Shown piece after piece: positions 9,313 to 57,620 of a DNA stretch of 64,000 nucleotides. The notes below the pieces were generated by a model, which saw only the letters and a list, made by a program, of their open reading frames with translations, made no database searches and was not told the origin of the DNA. This DNA comes from Psychrobacillus vulpis (GTDB lineage: Bacteria > Bacillota > Bacilli > Bacillales_A > Planococcaceae). Numbering within the stretch: the first letter of the stretch is position 1; each line of letters begins with the position of its first letter. Where the stretch lies: assembly GCF_006861825.1 (NCBI RefSeq), contig NZ_VDGI01000001.1, positions 264,172-328,171 of the forward strand. Direction: 5' to 3'. A program made the translations under genes and the position numbers.

Positions 9313-9720
9313 TTATAATTGCTTTGTCACAAATGCTCCTATACCAACAAAAAAATATATTATCATCATATACACAATTAGCATTCCTGTTTCGATTGAC
9401 TCTACACCCATTGCAAATAGAACTAAAAGGAGTGCACCACTACCAAACAATACTATGTACAGGGAAATAGAAAAATACTTTTTCATCAATGTTATAGTAC
9501 GTTCATCTACTTCTGGGACATTACCATTACGTTTTTGACGCCATTTTGAAAGGAATAGGAAAACCATAAATCCTCCTAAAGCCCCTATTACTATCGGCAA
9601 GAACAACTCAAAGTTATAGGTTCCATCTTCACTTCCAATGATATATATACCAAGTAAGCCACCAATTATTATTGACCCTACAACAACTGCATAAATAATT
9701 ATTTCAGTTCGTTTCTTCAT
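9313..9720 (-). CDS. Small four-helix membrane protein, partner of XRE regulator
   Basis: A 135-residue protein with hydrophobic segments at about 8-28, 38-60, 85-105 and 112-130. A charged cytoplasmic loop holds WRQKRNGNVPEVDERT. Short membrane proteins with a VDERT-like loop are commonly encoded with a small Cro-type regulator; their function is not known to me. The ATG overlaps the regulator's stop by 4 nt (ATGA), so the pair is translationally coupled and probably shares the operators at 9952-10025. Confidence 0.7.
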   Translation of the reverse strand: MKKRTEIIIYAVVVGSIIIGGLLGIYIIGSEDGTYNFELFLPIVIGALGGFMVFLFLSKWRQKRNGNVPEVDERTITLMKKYFSISLYIVLFGSGALLLVLFAMGVESIETGMLIVYMMIIYFFVGIGAFVTKQL

Positions 9721-9929
9721 ACTTCATCCTCCTCTAAGTAGAACAATTCTTCGATAGGAACACCCAAATATTGAATAAGCTTTAGAGCAAGCTCTAAACT
9801 AGGATTGTATTTATTATTTTCAATTGCCGTTATTGTTTGCCTCGTTATTTGCAAATCCTCCGCCATCTGTATTTGGGTGATTCCTCTTTTCAAACGGATT
9901 TCCTTAATATGATTAATCACCTTTGTCAT
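9717..9929 (-). CDS. Small XRE family transcriptional regulator
   Basis: A 70-residue Cro/CI-type helix-turn-helix protein. The HTH is IKEIRLKRGITQIQMAEDLQ, then ITRQTITAIENNKYNPSLEL, ending with an acidic tail. It resembles the YgzD-type stand-alone regulators of Bacillales. A GGGGGA ribosome site precedes the ATG. The upstream region carries two copies of the palindrome ATGTAAAGATATCTTTACAT, one on each side of a possible -10 (TATAGC), so autorepression is likely. The downstream membrane protein is translationally coupled. Confidence 0.88.
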   Translation of the reverse strand: MTKVINHIKEIRLKRGITQIQMAEDLQITRQTITAIENNKYNPSLELALKLIQYLGVPIEELFYLEEDEV

Positions 9930-9951
9930 TAACTACGTCCCCCTGATGCAT

Positions 9952-9971
9952 ATGTAAAGATATCTTTACAT
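9952..9971. promoter_or_regulatory. Operator 1 of the XRE module
   Basis: ATGTAAAGATATCTTTACAT is a perfect 20-bp palindrome in the 5' leader of the XRE gene. The same 20 bp recur as the centre of the 40-bp palindrome at 9986-10025. Autoregulation by the adjacent XRE protein is inferred. Confidence 0.65.
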
Positions 9972-9985
9972 TGATGCTATACTAA

Positions 9986-10025
9986 AAAGACCTTAATGTA
10001 AAGATATCTTTACATTAAGGTCTTT
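9986..10025. promoter_or_regulatory. 40-bp perfect palindrome: operator 2 and signal-peptidase terminator
   Basis: Two 20-nt arms with no loop are perfectly complementary (centre at 10005/10006). The inner 20 bp equal operator 1. On the minus strand it follows the stop codon of the signal peptidase gene and ends in TCTTTTT, so it can also act as that gene's terminator. A TTTACA inside it could be the -35 of the XRE promoter, with TATAGC 15 bp downstream. One DNA element therefore appears to serve as terminator and operator, and perhaps supplies the -35. Confidence 0.6.
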
Positions 10026-52814: not shown

Positions 52815-53502
52815 AATCGAGTAGGAGGGAGTGAATAACTCCCGTCCTCTCACACCACCGTACGTACGGTTCCGTATACGGCGGTTCAATTAAGATGAAT
52901 AACGCAAGATTTCATAACGAGCTTGCAGACTTTTGAGCCCTTGGTTACTCCAGTAGGAGTTGTTAAGGGCTCTGCTTAATATTGGACTATTGGAGATTCT
53001 CCAATAACCTTTGCGAGTATTTCCCCATTCAAATGCTTTTCCATCTGGAATACCTAATCGGATGAGATTTCTCACTTTGGTTCTGGGTTTCTTCCAATTC
53101 TTCCATAGACACATACGAAGTCTTCTGCGAATCCAACCATCTATTTCTCCGAAAATTAATTTCGTGTCCGCTAACGCAAAATAACCACACCAACCAATTA
53201 AATAACGATTTAGTTGTTCAATGCGATATTCCATTGGATACGGTTTCTTCCTGGAGGTGATTTCCCGGATTTTCTTCTTCATTCGTTGTAAACTCTCTTT
53301 TGCGATACGAACCTTTGGTTCTTTATTAGAAGTATAACTAAATCCCCAAAATTTACGTTTCCAAGGACGGTCCACGGCGGATTTCTTTTCATTTACCTTC
53401 AATCGAAGTTTTCTTTCAATGAATGTTTGGACACTTTCCATGACACGTTCGCCCGAACGTTTAGATTTCACATAAATATTACAATCGTCCGCATAACAAT
53501 AG
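52815..53502 (-). mobile_element. Truncated group II intron, 3' part
   Basis: On the minus strand this contains the C-terminal part of a group II intron maturase gene. It is followed by a structured 3' end (ACCGCCGTATACGG and CCGTACGTACGGTGG pairing arms, then GACGGGAG...CTCCCTCC) typical of domains V and VI. It ends near CCTACTCGA. Homology starts abruptly at the reverse-transcriptase YADD motif, so the 5' intron half and N-terminal RT domain are lost. It is immobile. Confidence 0.75.
52890..53496 (-). pseudogene. ltrA: Group II intron reverse transcriptase/maturase, N-terminally truncated
   Basis: The frame starts with YADDCNIYVKSKRSGERVME, the catalytic centre of LtrA-type enzymes. It continues through the thumb/maturase X region (LRLKVNEKKSAVDRPWKRKF, YLIGWCGYFALADTK) and ends in the usual C-terminal zone (GYWRISNSPILSRALNNSYW). 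About 200 residues are present, against more than 400 in intact proteins. In-frame codons before YADD run into a TAG after unrelated sequence. It cannot encode an active reverse transcriptase. Confidence 0.88.
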
Positions 53503-53871
53503 CTCTAGATCCATTGGTACTATGACCTCGGCTGACTTCTGATGGTTCAGCTACTTATCATTAAGTAGGTTATGAAGGGCACTTCACGTTTCCATCAGAC
53601 CTCCCCGGGTAAGCGTATGCACTTTCTCTCCATCTATCCGCCTCATTTACTAAACCTATCCTTCGACAGAAAGGACTTTGCGTTGAAATGCACGCTCATC
53701 CAAACAGACCTAGCCTTATATGAGATTCGTGTTCCTCGGACCGGAGATTTGCCGCCAGCTTCCTTCAGATTCCACGTCACCATGGACACCCTTGCTCTTG
53801 GCTAACCACTACTTCTGCCTTCGTGGCTCAGGACTTGCACCCTATAGTTCATACGCATGCCGGCGCACATT
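53503..53871. other. Unassigned remnant sequence next to the intron
   Basis: This 370-bp stretch is more GC-rich than its surroundings and has no supported gene. Its style (CAGACCTCCCCGGGTAAGCG; GATTCCACGTCACCATGGAC) resembles noncoding sequence often seen beside group II introns or reverse-transcriptase-type elements. I cannot name the element. Short open frames on the plus strand lack ribosome sites. Confidence 0.45.
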
Positions 53872-53959: not shown

Positions 53960-54997
53960 TTAAGATAAGCTACCTTGGTATTGTAATTCCTTTACTGACA
54001 TTTGATCAGCTTTTCCGTCTAATATGAACTCAACATCTTTCAATGTTTGTGCCAAAGCTACCGCTTTTCCTCCCCCTGTGTAAGCCTCCGCAACAAAAAA
54101 TGGTTGTGTAAAATATGCTTCTAAACGCTCTCCGCGATTATATACTTCTAATTCAACATCAGGTATTTTTTCAATTCCGTGAACATTTACGATCGATCGT
54201 AATTCTCTGTATCGACGAAGTAATTTCTGCGCACGTTGTCTTAAGTTGAAGTGACGTTGATCAACATCTACACCTTCTAGAATGGATGATGTGGAGTAAA
54301 TTGGATGTACGGCAGGATATTGATGACGTGTCGCTAAGTCGGCATCTAATTGCCATACGGTTTCTAAAGGACCATAAGGAATATCCTCATCAACAACCTC
54401 ACCCGAAAGGTCCAGTAATATAGTCGTAATATTAGAAACTCCTTCTGTTGCTAATTTCTCTTGAAGATCTAAAAGTTCTCCAGTAACAATGTAACTTTTA
54501 TCAGTTATAAAAATTATATCTCCATCTAACTCTGTCAATTTTGCAAATGTATCTTCAATGTTTGTCGTAACAAAATCTGCTAATTCCGTTGTCCCCTCCA
54601 GCACACTGTGTTCAGCTACTGGTAATAAAAAAACAGTCGTGTAGTCTCCTTTTTTAAAACGATGCATCAATTCAGCTAGAATAACTACTTGCCCCATACC
54701 CGGGCGAGCAACTAATCCAGTTGTTCCCCCTTTTACTAGCGGTGCAAAGAAATCCAATGTTTTAATTTGTGTTTCAATCATATTCAATTTCTCCCCTCTT
54801 ATGATTAACTCATCCAACGTACAATTAGCTAACATTGCAAGACCTACTAGTGTTCTTACTTCTGCTTTTCCCAAATCAATTTTTCCTGTACATAAATTTG
54901 ATACAGTTGCTGGCCGAATACCTATCGATTTTGCCGCTGTTGTTAGGTTTGGAACCTTTCTTCTTAATAAAGCTACATTTAGTCGTATAGAATCCAT
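53960..54997 (-). CDS. XRE-like HTH fused to a degenerate F1-ATPase beta-subunit domain
   Basis: A 345-residue protein. Residues 5-65 look like a Cro/CI-type helix-turn-helix (LTTAAKSIGIRPATVSNLCT, GKIDLGKAEVRTLVGLAMLA). From residue 72 on it follows ATP synthase beta in order: TQIKTLDFFAPLVKGGTTGL (like [20 protein letters not shown]), DGDIIFITDK in the Walker B place, HQYPAVHPIYSTSS (like GIYPAVDPLASTS), LLRRYRELRSIVNVHGIEKI, and RLEAYFTQPFFVAEAYTG. The P-loop GGAGVGKT is replaced by ARPGMGQV, losing the Lys-Thr, while Glu129 aligns with the catalytic Glu. The beta-barrel domain is absent, replaced by the HTH. GGGAGGAG precedes the ATG. ATP hydrolysis is unlikely; a nucleotide-sensing regulator is inferred. 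Confidence 0.82.
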   Translation of the reverse strand: MDSIRLNVALLRRKVPNLTTAAKSIGIRPATVSNLCTGKIDLGKAEVRTLVGLAMLANCTLDELIIRGEKLNMIETQIKTLDFFAPLVKGGTTGLVARPGMGQVVILAELMHRFKKGDYTTVFLLPVAEHSVLEGTTELADFVTTNIEDTFAKLTELDGDIIFITDKSYIVTGELLDLQEKLATEGVSNITTILLDLSGEVVDEDIPYGPLETVWQLDADLATRHQYPAVHPIYSTSSILEGVDVDQRHFNLRQRAQKLLRRYRELRSIVNVHGIEKIPDVELEVYNRGERLEAYFTQPFFVAEAYTGGGKAVALAQTLKDVEFILDGKADQMSVKELQYQGSLS

Positions 54998-55107
54998 AAC
55001 AATTCTCCTCCCTTACTTTTTATAGTAATTAATTTTTCCCTTTAACGCAACGATAATTTCTTTAAAAAGTAATTTTTTTTACTCTTGAAAAGTATCTAGT
55101 AAATATA

Positions 55108-55147
55108 ATCAGGTTCTTACACAATATAATATTGTATAAGAACCTGA
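55108..55147. promoter_or_regulatory. Long palindrome between the HTH/F1-beta gene and the VOC gene
   Basis: ATCAGGTTCTTA and TAAGAACCTGAT flank an ACAATAT/ATATTGT core. The 19-nt arms have one mismatch. It has no proper T-run on either strand and lies between two divergent genes, so it is more likely an operator than a terminator. Binding by the adjacent HTH protein is inference. Confidence 0.5.
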
Positions 55148-55366
55148 TAAAAACTTTCATATTTAGTTACTTATTGCACACTTATCCATTGGATTACTTA
55201 AATTAGTCAATGAAAAAATGTTGTCTAGTAAAAAAGAAAAATAATATATACTTTTCATCATAACCTCTTAAACTTTATAAAAAATTTATTAAACTTTAAT
55301 AAAAGAAAGAAGGAATAGTAAGCCTTTATGCGGAATTATACTTTACTATACTAAAGGAGGTTTTGT

Positions 55367-55834: not shown

Positions 55835-56779
55835 TTACTTTACAATTGTGCTTAATGAATTGTTAAGTAAAAACATCACTTTTTCATTGAACTGGTTTGG
55901 TGCTATTCGAGACATTTCATCAATTGTCTTGTATTGAATCTGATGGAACTGTGGGTGTTCTTCAATACCTCTTAAAATATTGTTTAATATTCCTCTTGCC
56001 TTTTGATTCATCAATATATCTGAGAAAGTACTGTCTATTGAGAATACATCATCAGTTATAGTTAGCTCCTTTACTTCTACATTGAGTAAATTCGGCATTT
56101 TAAACCAATCAGTAACTGAATAGATGTCTACTTCGACAAGATTTTGTGCACTATCTCCCTCTACTGTTTCTGTGATTACAGTTGATTCACCTTTTTCTTC
56201 GGTTGAAGATTCTGGTTCGGGTTTTGCTTCATTTTCAGTTTCCGGAGCCTCAGGTTTTTCCTCAGAACCTGGTGTTGGAACTTTTTCAGGTTCTTGAACT
56301 GGCACTAATGGCACTGGCACTAGCTGTAATTGAGCAGCCTGTCCATCCATTTGTGCTTTAGCTTGTTCTATAATTGCATCTAAATTAGCTAAAATGGCAG
56401 CTTCTTGTTCACTGTTATCGATTTTCATCTCTAATTTTAATTGGTCTGCATAGTCTCTTAAAGCTTCAATCTTATTAGCTTTTTCATTCTGAGTAAATTG
56501 CTCTAAATTTGCTTCTGCATTTTGCTTTTCTACTTGTAATTGATCCTTTAATTGCCCCATAAGAACAGCTTTCTCTAACGCTATAGCCGTATCTATTTCT
56601 TCAATAGATTCTTGCTTTTTATTATAAAACCAACTAGTCATTAAACTTTGAATATCTTGATCTGCTAAAGCAATTTTTACACCACTTCCAAGGCCAATAC
56701 TTAAAAATAGAGCTCCAACAACGATTGTTATTTTTTTGACCAGGTGCTTTTTTTTGTATTTCTCGAGTCTATTTATCAT
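55835..56779 (-). CDS. Exported coiled-coil protein with Pro/Glu linker (third gene of trio)
   Basis: A 314-residue protein. A signal peptide or anchor spans about 15-40 (ITIVVGALFLSIGLGSGVKI, then ALADQ). QSLMTSWFYNKKQES follows, then a long helical coiled coil to about residue 150. A low-complexity linker rich in Pro and Glu comes next (about 155-205), then a C-terminal domain (VEVDIYSVTDWFKMPNLLNV, FSIDSTFSDILMNQKARGIL). The N-terminal SWF motif aligns with KWY and AWF in the two upstream genes. I do not recognise the family. It is the last gene before the terminator, with a 73-bp gap to the previous one. A surface or septal role is possible but unsupported. Confidence 0.75.
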   Translation of the reverse strand: MINRLEKYKKKHLVKKITIVVGALFLSIGLGSGVKIALADQDIQSLMTSWFYNKKQESIEEIDTAIALEKAVLMGQLKDQLQVEKQNAEANLEQFTQNEKANKIEALRDYADQLKLEMKIDNSEQEAAILANLDAIIEQAKAQMDGQAAQLQLVPVPLVPVQEPEKVPTPGSEEKPEAPETENEAKPEPESSTEEKGESTVITETVEGDSAQNLVEVDIYSVTDWFKMPNLLNVEVKELTITDDVFSIDSTFSDILMNQKARGILNNILRGIEEHPQFHQIQYKTIDEMSRIAPNQFNEKVMFLLNNSLSTIVK

Positions 56780-56852
56780 GTACGTTCCTCCACTGAGGTT
56801 CTTCTATATATTACAAGAACAGTAAATTACTTTTTGAATTTAATAAAGATAA

Positions 56853-57620
56853 TTAAATACCGTCTACTAAATCTTGCATCGCTGTTTTAGCAGCGTCTTC
56901 TAATTCTTGTGCTCTATCCGCGATAAGCTCTTCTTGTTCCTGTACCATAAAGTTTGTCATCATCGTTACCCAAACTCGAACTTCTCCGATTCTTGTATCT
57001 ATTAATTTCTTAATTTCATCTGTAGTAGATGAAGCTTGGTTGTCTAATTGTGTTTGTAGACTAGATTTAGCATTTTCAATTGCAGTCCGCAAATCACTAA
57101 GAGCTTGGTCAGTTGTTGATGTAAGTTCTGTATTTAATTTTGTCTGAGCAGCTTGTCCAACTTCATCTGTATGGCTTGCCATATTTTCAGAAGCTTTTCT
57201 AGCAGCCTCAGTCCCAGCATCAAAAATTCTTTGCTCGGCATCTACTATAATGTCTTCAAATTGTTTATTCATATACCCTTCAATCTCTACTTTCTTTGTA
57301 TTTATTGATTGAAGGTGTTGACTAAGTTCCTTATCAATATTAGTATTCGCAGTTGTACGAGCAGTTTCCTCACTACTATTAATTTTTGTAGTAGCGCCTA
57401 CTTTCAGTTCATTAAATTCAGTCTTTAAATCTTCCTTTTTTCCATTTGCATATTCGGTTATTTCGTTCTCCATATCAGCTTTAGCACCATTAAACTGTGT
57501 ATCAAACCAAGCTTTTAAATTTTCTCCAGCACCTGAAGCTCCAAATGCTACTCCAGCACCAGATGCTAAAGTTATCACTAATGTTCCTGCAATAATTTTA
57601 CCTTTTACTGTTTTTATCAA
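56853..57620 (-). CDS. Exported coiled-coil protein (second gene of trio)
   Basis: A 255-residue protein. A signal peptide is at about 1-28 (GKIIAGTLVITLASGAGVAF with GAS). ENLKAWFDTQFNGAK follows, then an almost continuous Ala/Glu/Lys/Gln-rich helix to the end (TTANTNIDKELSQHLQSINT; AKSSLQTQLDNQASSTTDEI). There are no cysteines, no anchor motif and no enzyme motif. The AWFDTQF segment matches the KWYGQSF and SWFYNKK segments of the neighbours, so the three are probably paralogues. It lies 20 bp after the first gene. Confidence 0.75.
   Translation of the reverse strand: MIKTVKGKIIAGTLVITLASGAGVAFGASGAGENLKAWFDTQFNGAKADMENEITEYANGKKEDLKTEFNELKVGATTKINSSEETARTTANTNIDKELSQHLQSINTKKVEIEGYMNKQFEDIIVDAEQRIFDAGTEAARKASENMASHTDEVGQAAQTKLNTELTSTTDQALSDLRTAIENAKSSLQTQLDNQASSTTDEIKKLIDTRIGEVRVWVTMMTNFMVQEQEELIADRAQELEDAAKTAMQDLVDGI

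Follow-up and report, generated by a model that had tools for sequence, protein, structure and literature searches.

A probable autoregulated repressor with an ATPase-dead F1-β domain in Psychrobacillus vulpis

Within the window, a 64,000-nucleotide stretch of Psychrobacillus vulpis DNA, a 345-residue protein joins an XRE-like HTH to a region resembling the β subunit of F1-ATPase. As judged from its sequence, its relatives and its promoter, the protein is probably a one-component, autoregulated repressor with a very small regulon, in which a domesticated, ATPase-dead F1-β domain serves as the sensor. The preliminary description of this DNA had suggested a domesticated rotor subunit working as a transcription regulator. 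That idea gains from a conserved family, a dead P-loop, the XRE-like HTH and an operator-like array, while the operator and the Glu129 that it put forward do not stand. The gene is an ORF (54997..53960) without internal stop, and its parts are as follows.

53960..54997, minus strand: regulator gene, 345 aa, with the XRE-like HTH (residues ~5–66) and the F1-β-like region (~70–345), from profile matches and dN/dS
54797..54985, minus strand: HTH region, residues ~5–67, the most constrained part, from the HTH_26 match to residues 5–66, alignments and dN
54677..54709, minus strand: degenerate P-loop, residues 97–107 (ARPGMGQVVIL), with Lys replaced by Gln103, from the alignment and a motif count
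53963..54481, minus strand: C-terminal F1-β-like block, residues 173–345, from phmmer, hmmsearch against PDB chains and hhalign

The relationship of residues ~70–345 to F1-β is confirmed at the level of profiles. With the window protein, phmmer against PDB chains retrieved the chloroplast β subunit (6fkf_B, E 2.3e-29), and hmmsearch with the family profile reached a best E of 4.5e-44. The comparison with AtpD that the preliminary description had proposed gave 99.9% and E 3e-35 (hhalign against six AtpD sequences), with residues 68–345 aligned on AtpD 128–459. This alignment begins only at AtpD 128, and the HTH stands where AtpD has its β-barrel domain, in line with the first reading. The likeness to F1-β is strong at residues ~70–117 and 173–345, over which the regulator is homologous to AtpD (TIGR01039, PF00006), and what lies between P-loop and C-terminal block is shortened (278 residues versus 332 in AtpD). 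A correspondence block by block over residues 72–340 thus overstates the likeness. The NCBIfam atpD model, TIGR01039, matched the window protein with E 3e-32 and 112 bits, without reaching its equivalog cut-off of 462.85 bits. Three NCBIfam families named as ATPase-complex subunits, alternate F1 β, MMOB1670 and MSC_0618, gave 108.7, 99.1 and 95.4 bits against these 112 bits, matching the F1-like part only and remaining well under each curated cut-off.

In a maximum-likelihood tree of 29 rows and 333 columns, unrooted and drawn from its midpoint, the 19 rows of the regulator family came together as a single clade (100/100) with a long stem of 2.72. A phylogeny with AtpD, AtpA and FliI had been suggested at the outset; it places the family with F1-β, with AtpA and FliI apart (95/96), in an unrooted tree whose long branches include AtpA, FliI and L131 and which does not settle where the family joins F1-β.

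Unlike AtpD, the regulator carries an HTH in front, and its F1-β-derived domain lacks the β-barrel, both Lys and Thr of the P-loop, and the catalytic segment with Glu-Arg. Among 52 aligned members, four residues never vary (A97, M101, G102 and Q103); Gln takes the place of the P-loop Lys in all 52, the window protein among them, and the Thr column is Leu, Val or Phe in all 52. The survey of homologues thus met no intact P-loop. A P-loop of the [VI]AR..MGQ type was present in 81 of 81 sequences (80 loci and P0001), and the GxxxxGK[TS] motif of AtpD is not matched by the family. No GER segment was seen in the alignments of the family with AtpD. Because the P-loop and the catalytic segment are lost, the domain is judged unable to act as a normal ATPase, and the energy of ATP hydrolysis would go unused by the regulator. 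An ordinary AtpD, with the P-loop GGAGVGKT, is encoded on contig C12 of the same genome (G000, 4.02 Mb, rated 100% complete). The preliminary description was right that the Lys-Thr pair is gone and that a Walker-B-like Asp remains, D166 being present in 52/52 members. It was wrong on Glu129, a column with Glu in 24/52, Asp in 12/52, Asn in 9/52 and other residues or a gap in 7/52; Glu129 is therefore not a catalytic Glu that has been retained, and it was ruled out in that role.

Aromatic residues are kept in three columns, 227 (Tyr/Phe in 52/52), 300 (Phe in 50/52) and 306 (Phe/Tyr/Trp in 49/52), which we take to be the adenine pocket of F1-β. The retention of these columns beside a lost phosphate loop would suit a special case of the repressor reading, in which an adenine compound is bound but not hydrolysed by the domain, which tunes scavenging hydrolases, acting on amides and peptides, to the energy state of the cell. 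The hydrolase targets described below could feed carbon and nitrogen metabolism as this proposal would have it, but most of the genomes searched have no hydrolase under a clear array, and we regard such an energy or purine sensor as possible yet doubtful.

At the N-terminus, the Pfam model HTH_26 matched residues 5–66 of the window protein with E 0.0095 and 16.6 bits, under its 22-bit cut-off. The same model matched 42 of the 52 family members at E <= 0.01, with a best E of 1.4e-05, and agrees with the XRE-like HTH first described there. At this threshold, the Pfam scan of the 52 members returned only ATP-synt_ab, ATP-synt_VA_C, HTH_26, HTH_31 and HTH_3; neither a MerR HTH nor TipAS was among the matches. 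By these profiles, the family bears an HTH of the XRE or Cro/C1 type at its N-terminus.

The dN of the HTH was lower than that of the rest of the regulator in 6/6 comparisons. For the whole gene, dN/dS was 0.036–0.067 (~0.05) in the 4 of 6 comparisons with estimable dS, rough values given a dS of 1.9–3.5, near saturation. The gene is thus under strong purifying selection. A dead P-loop and a shortened domain might also mark a decayed AtpD paralogue or a chance fusion without function, but with this dN/dS, a conserved promoter array and 256 loci, such an origin is extremely improbable.

These 256 confirmed loci came from a scan of genome contigs, in which the closest named relatives were Psychrobacillus species; 80 of them were kept and read. 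The loci fall in many genera, which from their names we take to lie within Bacillales. One is on a Paenibacillus plasmid, where it is annotated as a hypothetical protein. With the P. vulpis genome counted each time, the gene was present in 56/261 genomes of the family sample, 19/398 of the class sample and 3/398 of the phylum sample, counts that take in near relatives and are not independent events; at order level, the genomes were the same 261 as in the family sample. The distribution is patchy.

This patchiness bears on another proposal, namely that the protein senses free ATP-synthase subunits, such as α or γ, through protein-protein contacts and reports the assembly state. The C-terminal half of β is kept, and in the alignment the regulator has a segment in place of the β loop that presumably touches γ, both of which favour such a sensor. 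A gene found in 19/398 genomes of the class is hard to square with that role, and no array match lay near atpD of the P. vulpis genome (C12:74517-75476) in the full match lists, making a subunit sensor quite improbable.

No relative of the regulator was found in the viral contigs scanned. Nineteen records of a phage collection matched at 24.6–35.9% identity within the F1-like part, from query residue 60 on, a pattern also expected of AtpD, and a phage origin was set aside. In one genome (G515, contig C23; L133/L148), the regulator gene recurs as a partial copy that carries an in-frame TAG and is preceded by an array-like site with 3 mismatches.

The promoter of the regulator holds alternating half-sites, AGTAA and TTACT, up to seven in number and ~11 bp apart, set around the −35 box, the −10 box and the start region, with AGTAA-N6-TTACT dyads among them. 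In the window, 4/7 half-sites are perfect and 3/7 degenerate.

55013..55083, minus strand: operator-like array, seven half-sites in 11-bp steps, from position and register counts, conservation and occurrence in genomes
55083-55079, minus strand: half-site 1, AGTAA, perfect
55072-55068, minus strand: half-site 2, TTACT, perfect
55061-55057, minus strand: half-site 3, AGAAA, degenerate
55050-55046, minus strand: half-site 4, TTGCG, degenerate
55039-55035, minus strand: half-site 5, GGAAA, degenerate
55028-55024, minus strand: half-site 6, TTACT, perfect
55017-55013, minus strand: half-site 7, AGTAA, perfect
55045..55050, minus strand: −35 box TTGCGT, doubling as the fourth half-site; TTG columns 95/93/86% in 84 distinct promoters
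55022..55027, minus strand: −10 box TACTAT, overlapping the sixth half-site; columns T 100, A 100, C 98 and last T 100%
55108..55148, minus strand: inverted repeat upstream of the array, a terminator-like stem, from hairpin scoring

The two boxes are spaced by 17 bp, and TTGC, 17 bp and TACTAT together resemble what we take to be a promoter of the housekeeping-sigma class. A generic promoter scan missed the pair in the window, which has 3/6 and 4/6 consensus letters and falls under the threshold of that scan. The palindrome at 55108-55147, which the preliminary description had put forward for DNA-binding tests, is terminator-like (minus strand) and has no AGTAA/TTACT array; it was rejected as the operator, the array itself lying at 55083-55013.

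Nearly every regulator locus shows the same upstream elements. Among 96 loci, the start was located in 93, and 3/96 without a start motif were dropped. We kept 85/93 loci (84 distinct promoters) with an anchor of at least 11/15 letters at AGTAA 0, TTACT −11 and AGTAA −22, and dropped 8/93 for a weak anchor. In five of these eight (L051, L084, L095, L096 and L138), the array is found higher up, in front of a gene or what remains of one; in L095 and L096 (~9613-9990), ~340 bp separate it from the regulator, an interval that gave no match to M3, FmdA or hydrolase and where a target gene has perhaps been lost. In the anchored promoters, the columns reveal TTGC at −33 as well as another block higher up. 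The anchor half-sites retained at least 4/5 letters in 83/84, 83/84 and 69/84 promoters, counts that are high by choice, and the half-site at −33 did so at its exact place in 37/84. Within 1 bp, half-sites of at least 4/5 letters were present at −44 in 54/84, at −55 in 54/84, at −66 in 52/84 and at −77 in 26/84. Shifted controls at these four upstream places gave 2–13/84, except that −66 shifted by +4 and +5 gave 33 and 34/84. The upstream block has its best mean at −45 in most promoters, 1 bp off a strict 11-bp register.

The array was also followed through whole genomes. Three half-sites without mismatch occurred in 26/56 genomes with the gene and 0/50 without it, and the reversed pattern gave none. 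A longer pattern with at most 3 mismatches was found in 60/62 genomes with the gene and 1/18 without, an agreement that is partly built in, since the patterns were derived from regulator promoters and most matches are those promoters. The misses were G005 and G773, and the match without the gene was one 3-mismatch site in G009; single 3-mismatch sites were also seen in three regulator genomes (G049, G074 and G141). The reversed longer pattern, used as the control, gave 2 matches in 80 genomes. Independent support for the array is twofold: genomes that lack the gene are almost free of it, and extra sites exist where the gene is present.

Comparison of coordinates showed that the common feature is an array at the regulator's own promoter, or at the operon holding the regulator (60/62 genomes). 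Only 5/62 genomes (G000, G129, G137, G138 and G207) have a clear site elsewhere than at the regulator or its operon, pointing to a tiny regulon or to weaker sites at other targets. In the P. vulpis genome, two of the three exact matches to a loose pattern (C12:193495 and C44:37738) fell within coding frames and were discounted; with 1 mismatch, this pattern was noise (57 matches against 110 in the control). A position-weight scan gave 503 matches of at least 14, of which a crude filter left 231 not taken as regulator promoters; apart from the targets, the best 60 of those 231 appear to be the same arrays read from the opposite strand. Its background, with no match of at least 12 in 1.14 Mb, is lenient, being a single-letter shuffle of 60 loci on one strand.

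Two kinds of candidate target emerged. On contig C5 of the P. vulpis genome, the array precedes a 563-aa M3 peptidase that contains HEAGH and scores 493.3 bits with TIGR02289 (cut-off 442.35). In 80 genomes (43 with and 37 without the regulator), the distinct clade of this M3 peptidase was found in 5, all with the regulator, at 58–100% identity to the P. vulpis copy; the next match was at 45%. All 5 loci of the clade have the array (scores 34–49), while 25 other M3 loci examined do not (best 4.5). The G138 copy contains one in-frame TAG. In Paenisporosarcina TG20 (L051), the M3 gene is split over two frames, 24 bp before the regulator, with the array in front. L039 has an M3-like gene of another clade (25% identical) downstream of its regulator.

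The second kind is an FmdA/AmdA-type amidase (PF03069). In G567, this amidase and then an α/β hydrolase precede the regulator behind one array, and in G207 an amidase-hydrolase pair has its own array (score 22.8, 3 mismatches), with the regulator on a different contig. The amidase directly follows the regulator in G341 (L142), L061 and L082, and in G341 the array stands before the regulator-FmdA pair. Decayed FmdA copies adjoin the regulator in L084, L068 and L069. In total, FmdA lies beside the regulator in 4 intact and 3 decayed cases of 95 loci, and the M3 gene in 1/95. FmdA genes outside the target clade have no array in 10/10 (best −3.6) and 16/16 (best 2.4) cases, the border of the clade being a matter of judgement, as one of these 16 (L291, at 63% identity) is near the clade although its genome gave no match to the regulator in the class sample. 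Some of the predicted target genes are broken, namely M3 of L051 and G138 and FmdA of L084. The hydrolase targets would fit either scavenging or the destruction of something harmful to the cell.

Eleven bp is about one turn of DNA, so that HTHs bound at this spacing would all sit on the same side of the helix, each turned opposite to the next, a layout that points to several subunits binding cooperatively. Since the half-sites cover the promoter, the bound HTHs would occupy the site of RNA polymerase and shut off the regulator's own promoter; this placement argues for repression rather than activation. The most likely input to the F1-β domain is a ligand or a partner. A small molecule fitting the kept base side of the F1-β pocket, or a protein partner, would change the domain and release the repressor, upon which the regulator and, where present, the hydrolases would be made. 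As the array lies mostly at the regulator alone, the protein may double as an effector, perhaps by sequestering its ligand, a logic of the TipA kind.

A further special case of this scheme takes the F1-β domain as a target mimic and sponge, a decoy capturing some toxin or natural product directed against F1-ATPase. Its capture would free the HTH, and more decoy would be made along with, where present, hydrolases to degrade the captured compound; the mimic subunits, lined up on the phased array, may even form a ring or filament through old F1 contacts. An array confined in most genomes to the own promoter or operon would suit a decoy, as would the identity of the extra targets (M3 oligopeptidase, FmdA amidase and α/β hydrolase). 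The Arg that we take to be the aurovertin contact of E. coli β is Ala294 in the regulator when aligned by eye, which speaks against it. Six Planococcus-type loci share a next gene of the same kind, in L049 with toxoflavin-degrading-type and β-lactamase-type domains, but this is synteny at the level of one genus only. Minimal autoregulated regulators that bind drugs do exist, TipA being an example (PMC7762955). On this balance, we consider the decoy unlikely.

Among known systems, BzdR comes close to the repressor proposed here. It combines an HTH-XRE with a shikimate-kinase-like domain of no detectable activity and binds benzoyl-CoA (PMC3602430). Both proteins would thus use a former P-loop enzyme, with catalytic residues lost, as the effector domain of an XRE HTH; BzdR keeps its Walker A and has a different enzyme fold, whereas the Walker A of the regulator is lost (PMC3602430). 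The TipA class (PMC7762955) is alike in being a minimal autoregulated system with the sensor and a possible effector in one protein, and differs in joining a MerR-like HTH to TipAS, in contrast to the XRE-like HTH and F1-β domain of a probable repressor. An XRE HTH on an enzyme-derived effector domain is therefore already known from BzdR, and F1-β as its source is new within the literature searched. No F1-β/HTH regulator was found among the open-access papers listed. If the repressor reading is true, it would show that even a machine component among the most conserved can become a genetic switch. It would offer a testable route, from barrel to HTH with the P-loop lost and the base pocket kept, for which a candidate operator and targets are in hand.

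The neighbourhood of the regulator varies, and a conserved operon partner was rejected, the top neighbour cluster being present in 11/96 loci (within 5 genes) or 13/80 (within 6). In nine Psychrobacillus-type loci (L037, L038, L040 and L043-L048), a Caa3_CtaG-type oxidase assembly gene lies downstream of the regulator, after a DUF2243 gene. A Caa3_CtaG-type gene of another cluster lies directly downstream on the opposite strand in nine loci of Fredinandcohnia/Bacillus timonensis (L060, L062-L064, L066, L067, L070, L071 and L074); the assignment was made by Pfam on L037 and L060 and by cluster for the remaining loci. These neighbours may reflect chance or a respiratory link. The shared Planococcus-type gene (L049, L050, L052, L053, L057 and L059) follows the regulator on the same strand at 31–106 bp, and in L049, the one scanned of these six, glyoxalase/toxoflavin-degrading-type and β-lactamase-type domains are fused. 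In four Sporosarcina loci (L091, L098, L105 and L113), the downstream gene on the same strand (57–126 bp) resembles, by eye, a small nucleotidyltransferase.

In the window itself, parts of a group II intron (Rfam D1-D4-3, D1-D4-1 and Intron_gpII; 52816-53786, minus strand) begin ~170 bp downstream of the regulator stop and include a maturase fragment with a GIIM domain (ORF 52890-53471). Upstream of the regulator, at 55835-57620 on the minus strand, two charged proteins of 314 and 255 aa have N-terminal signal-like segments, and other Psychrobacillus-type loci encode relatives close to the regulator.
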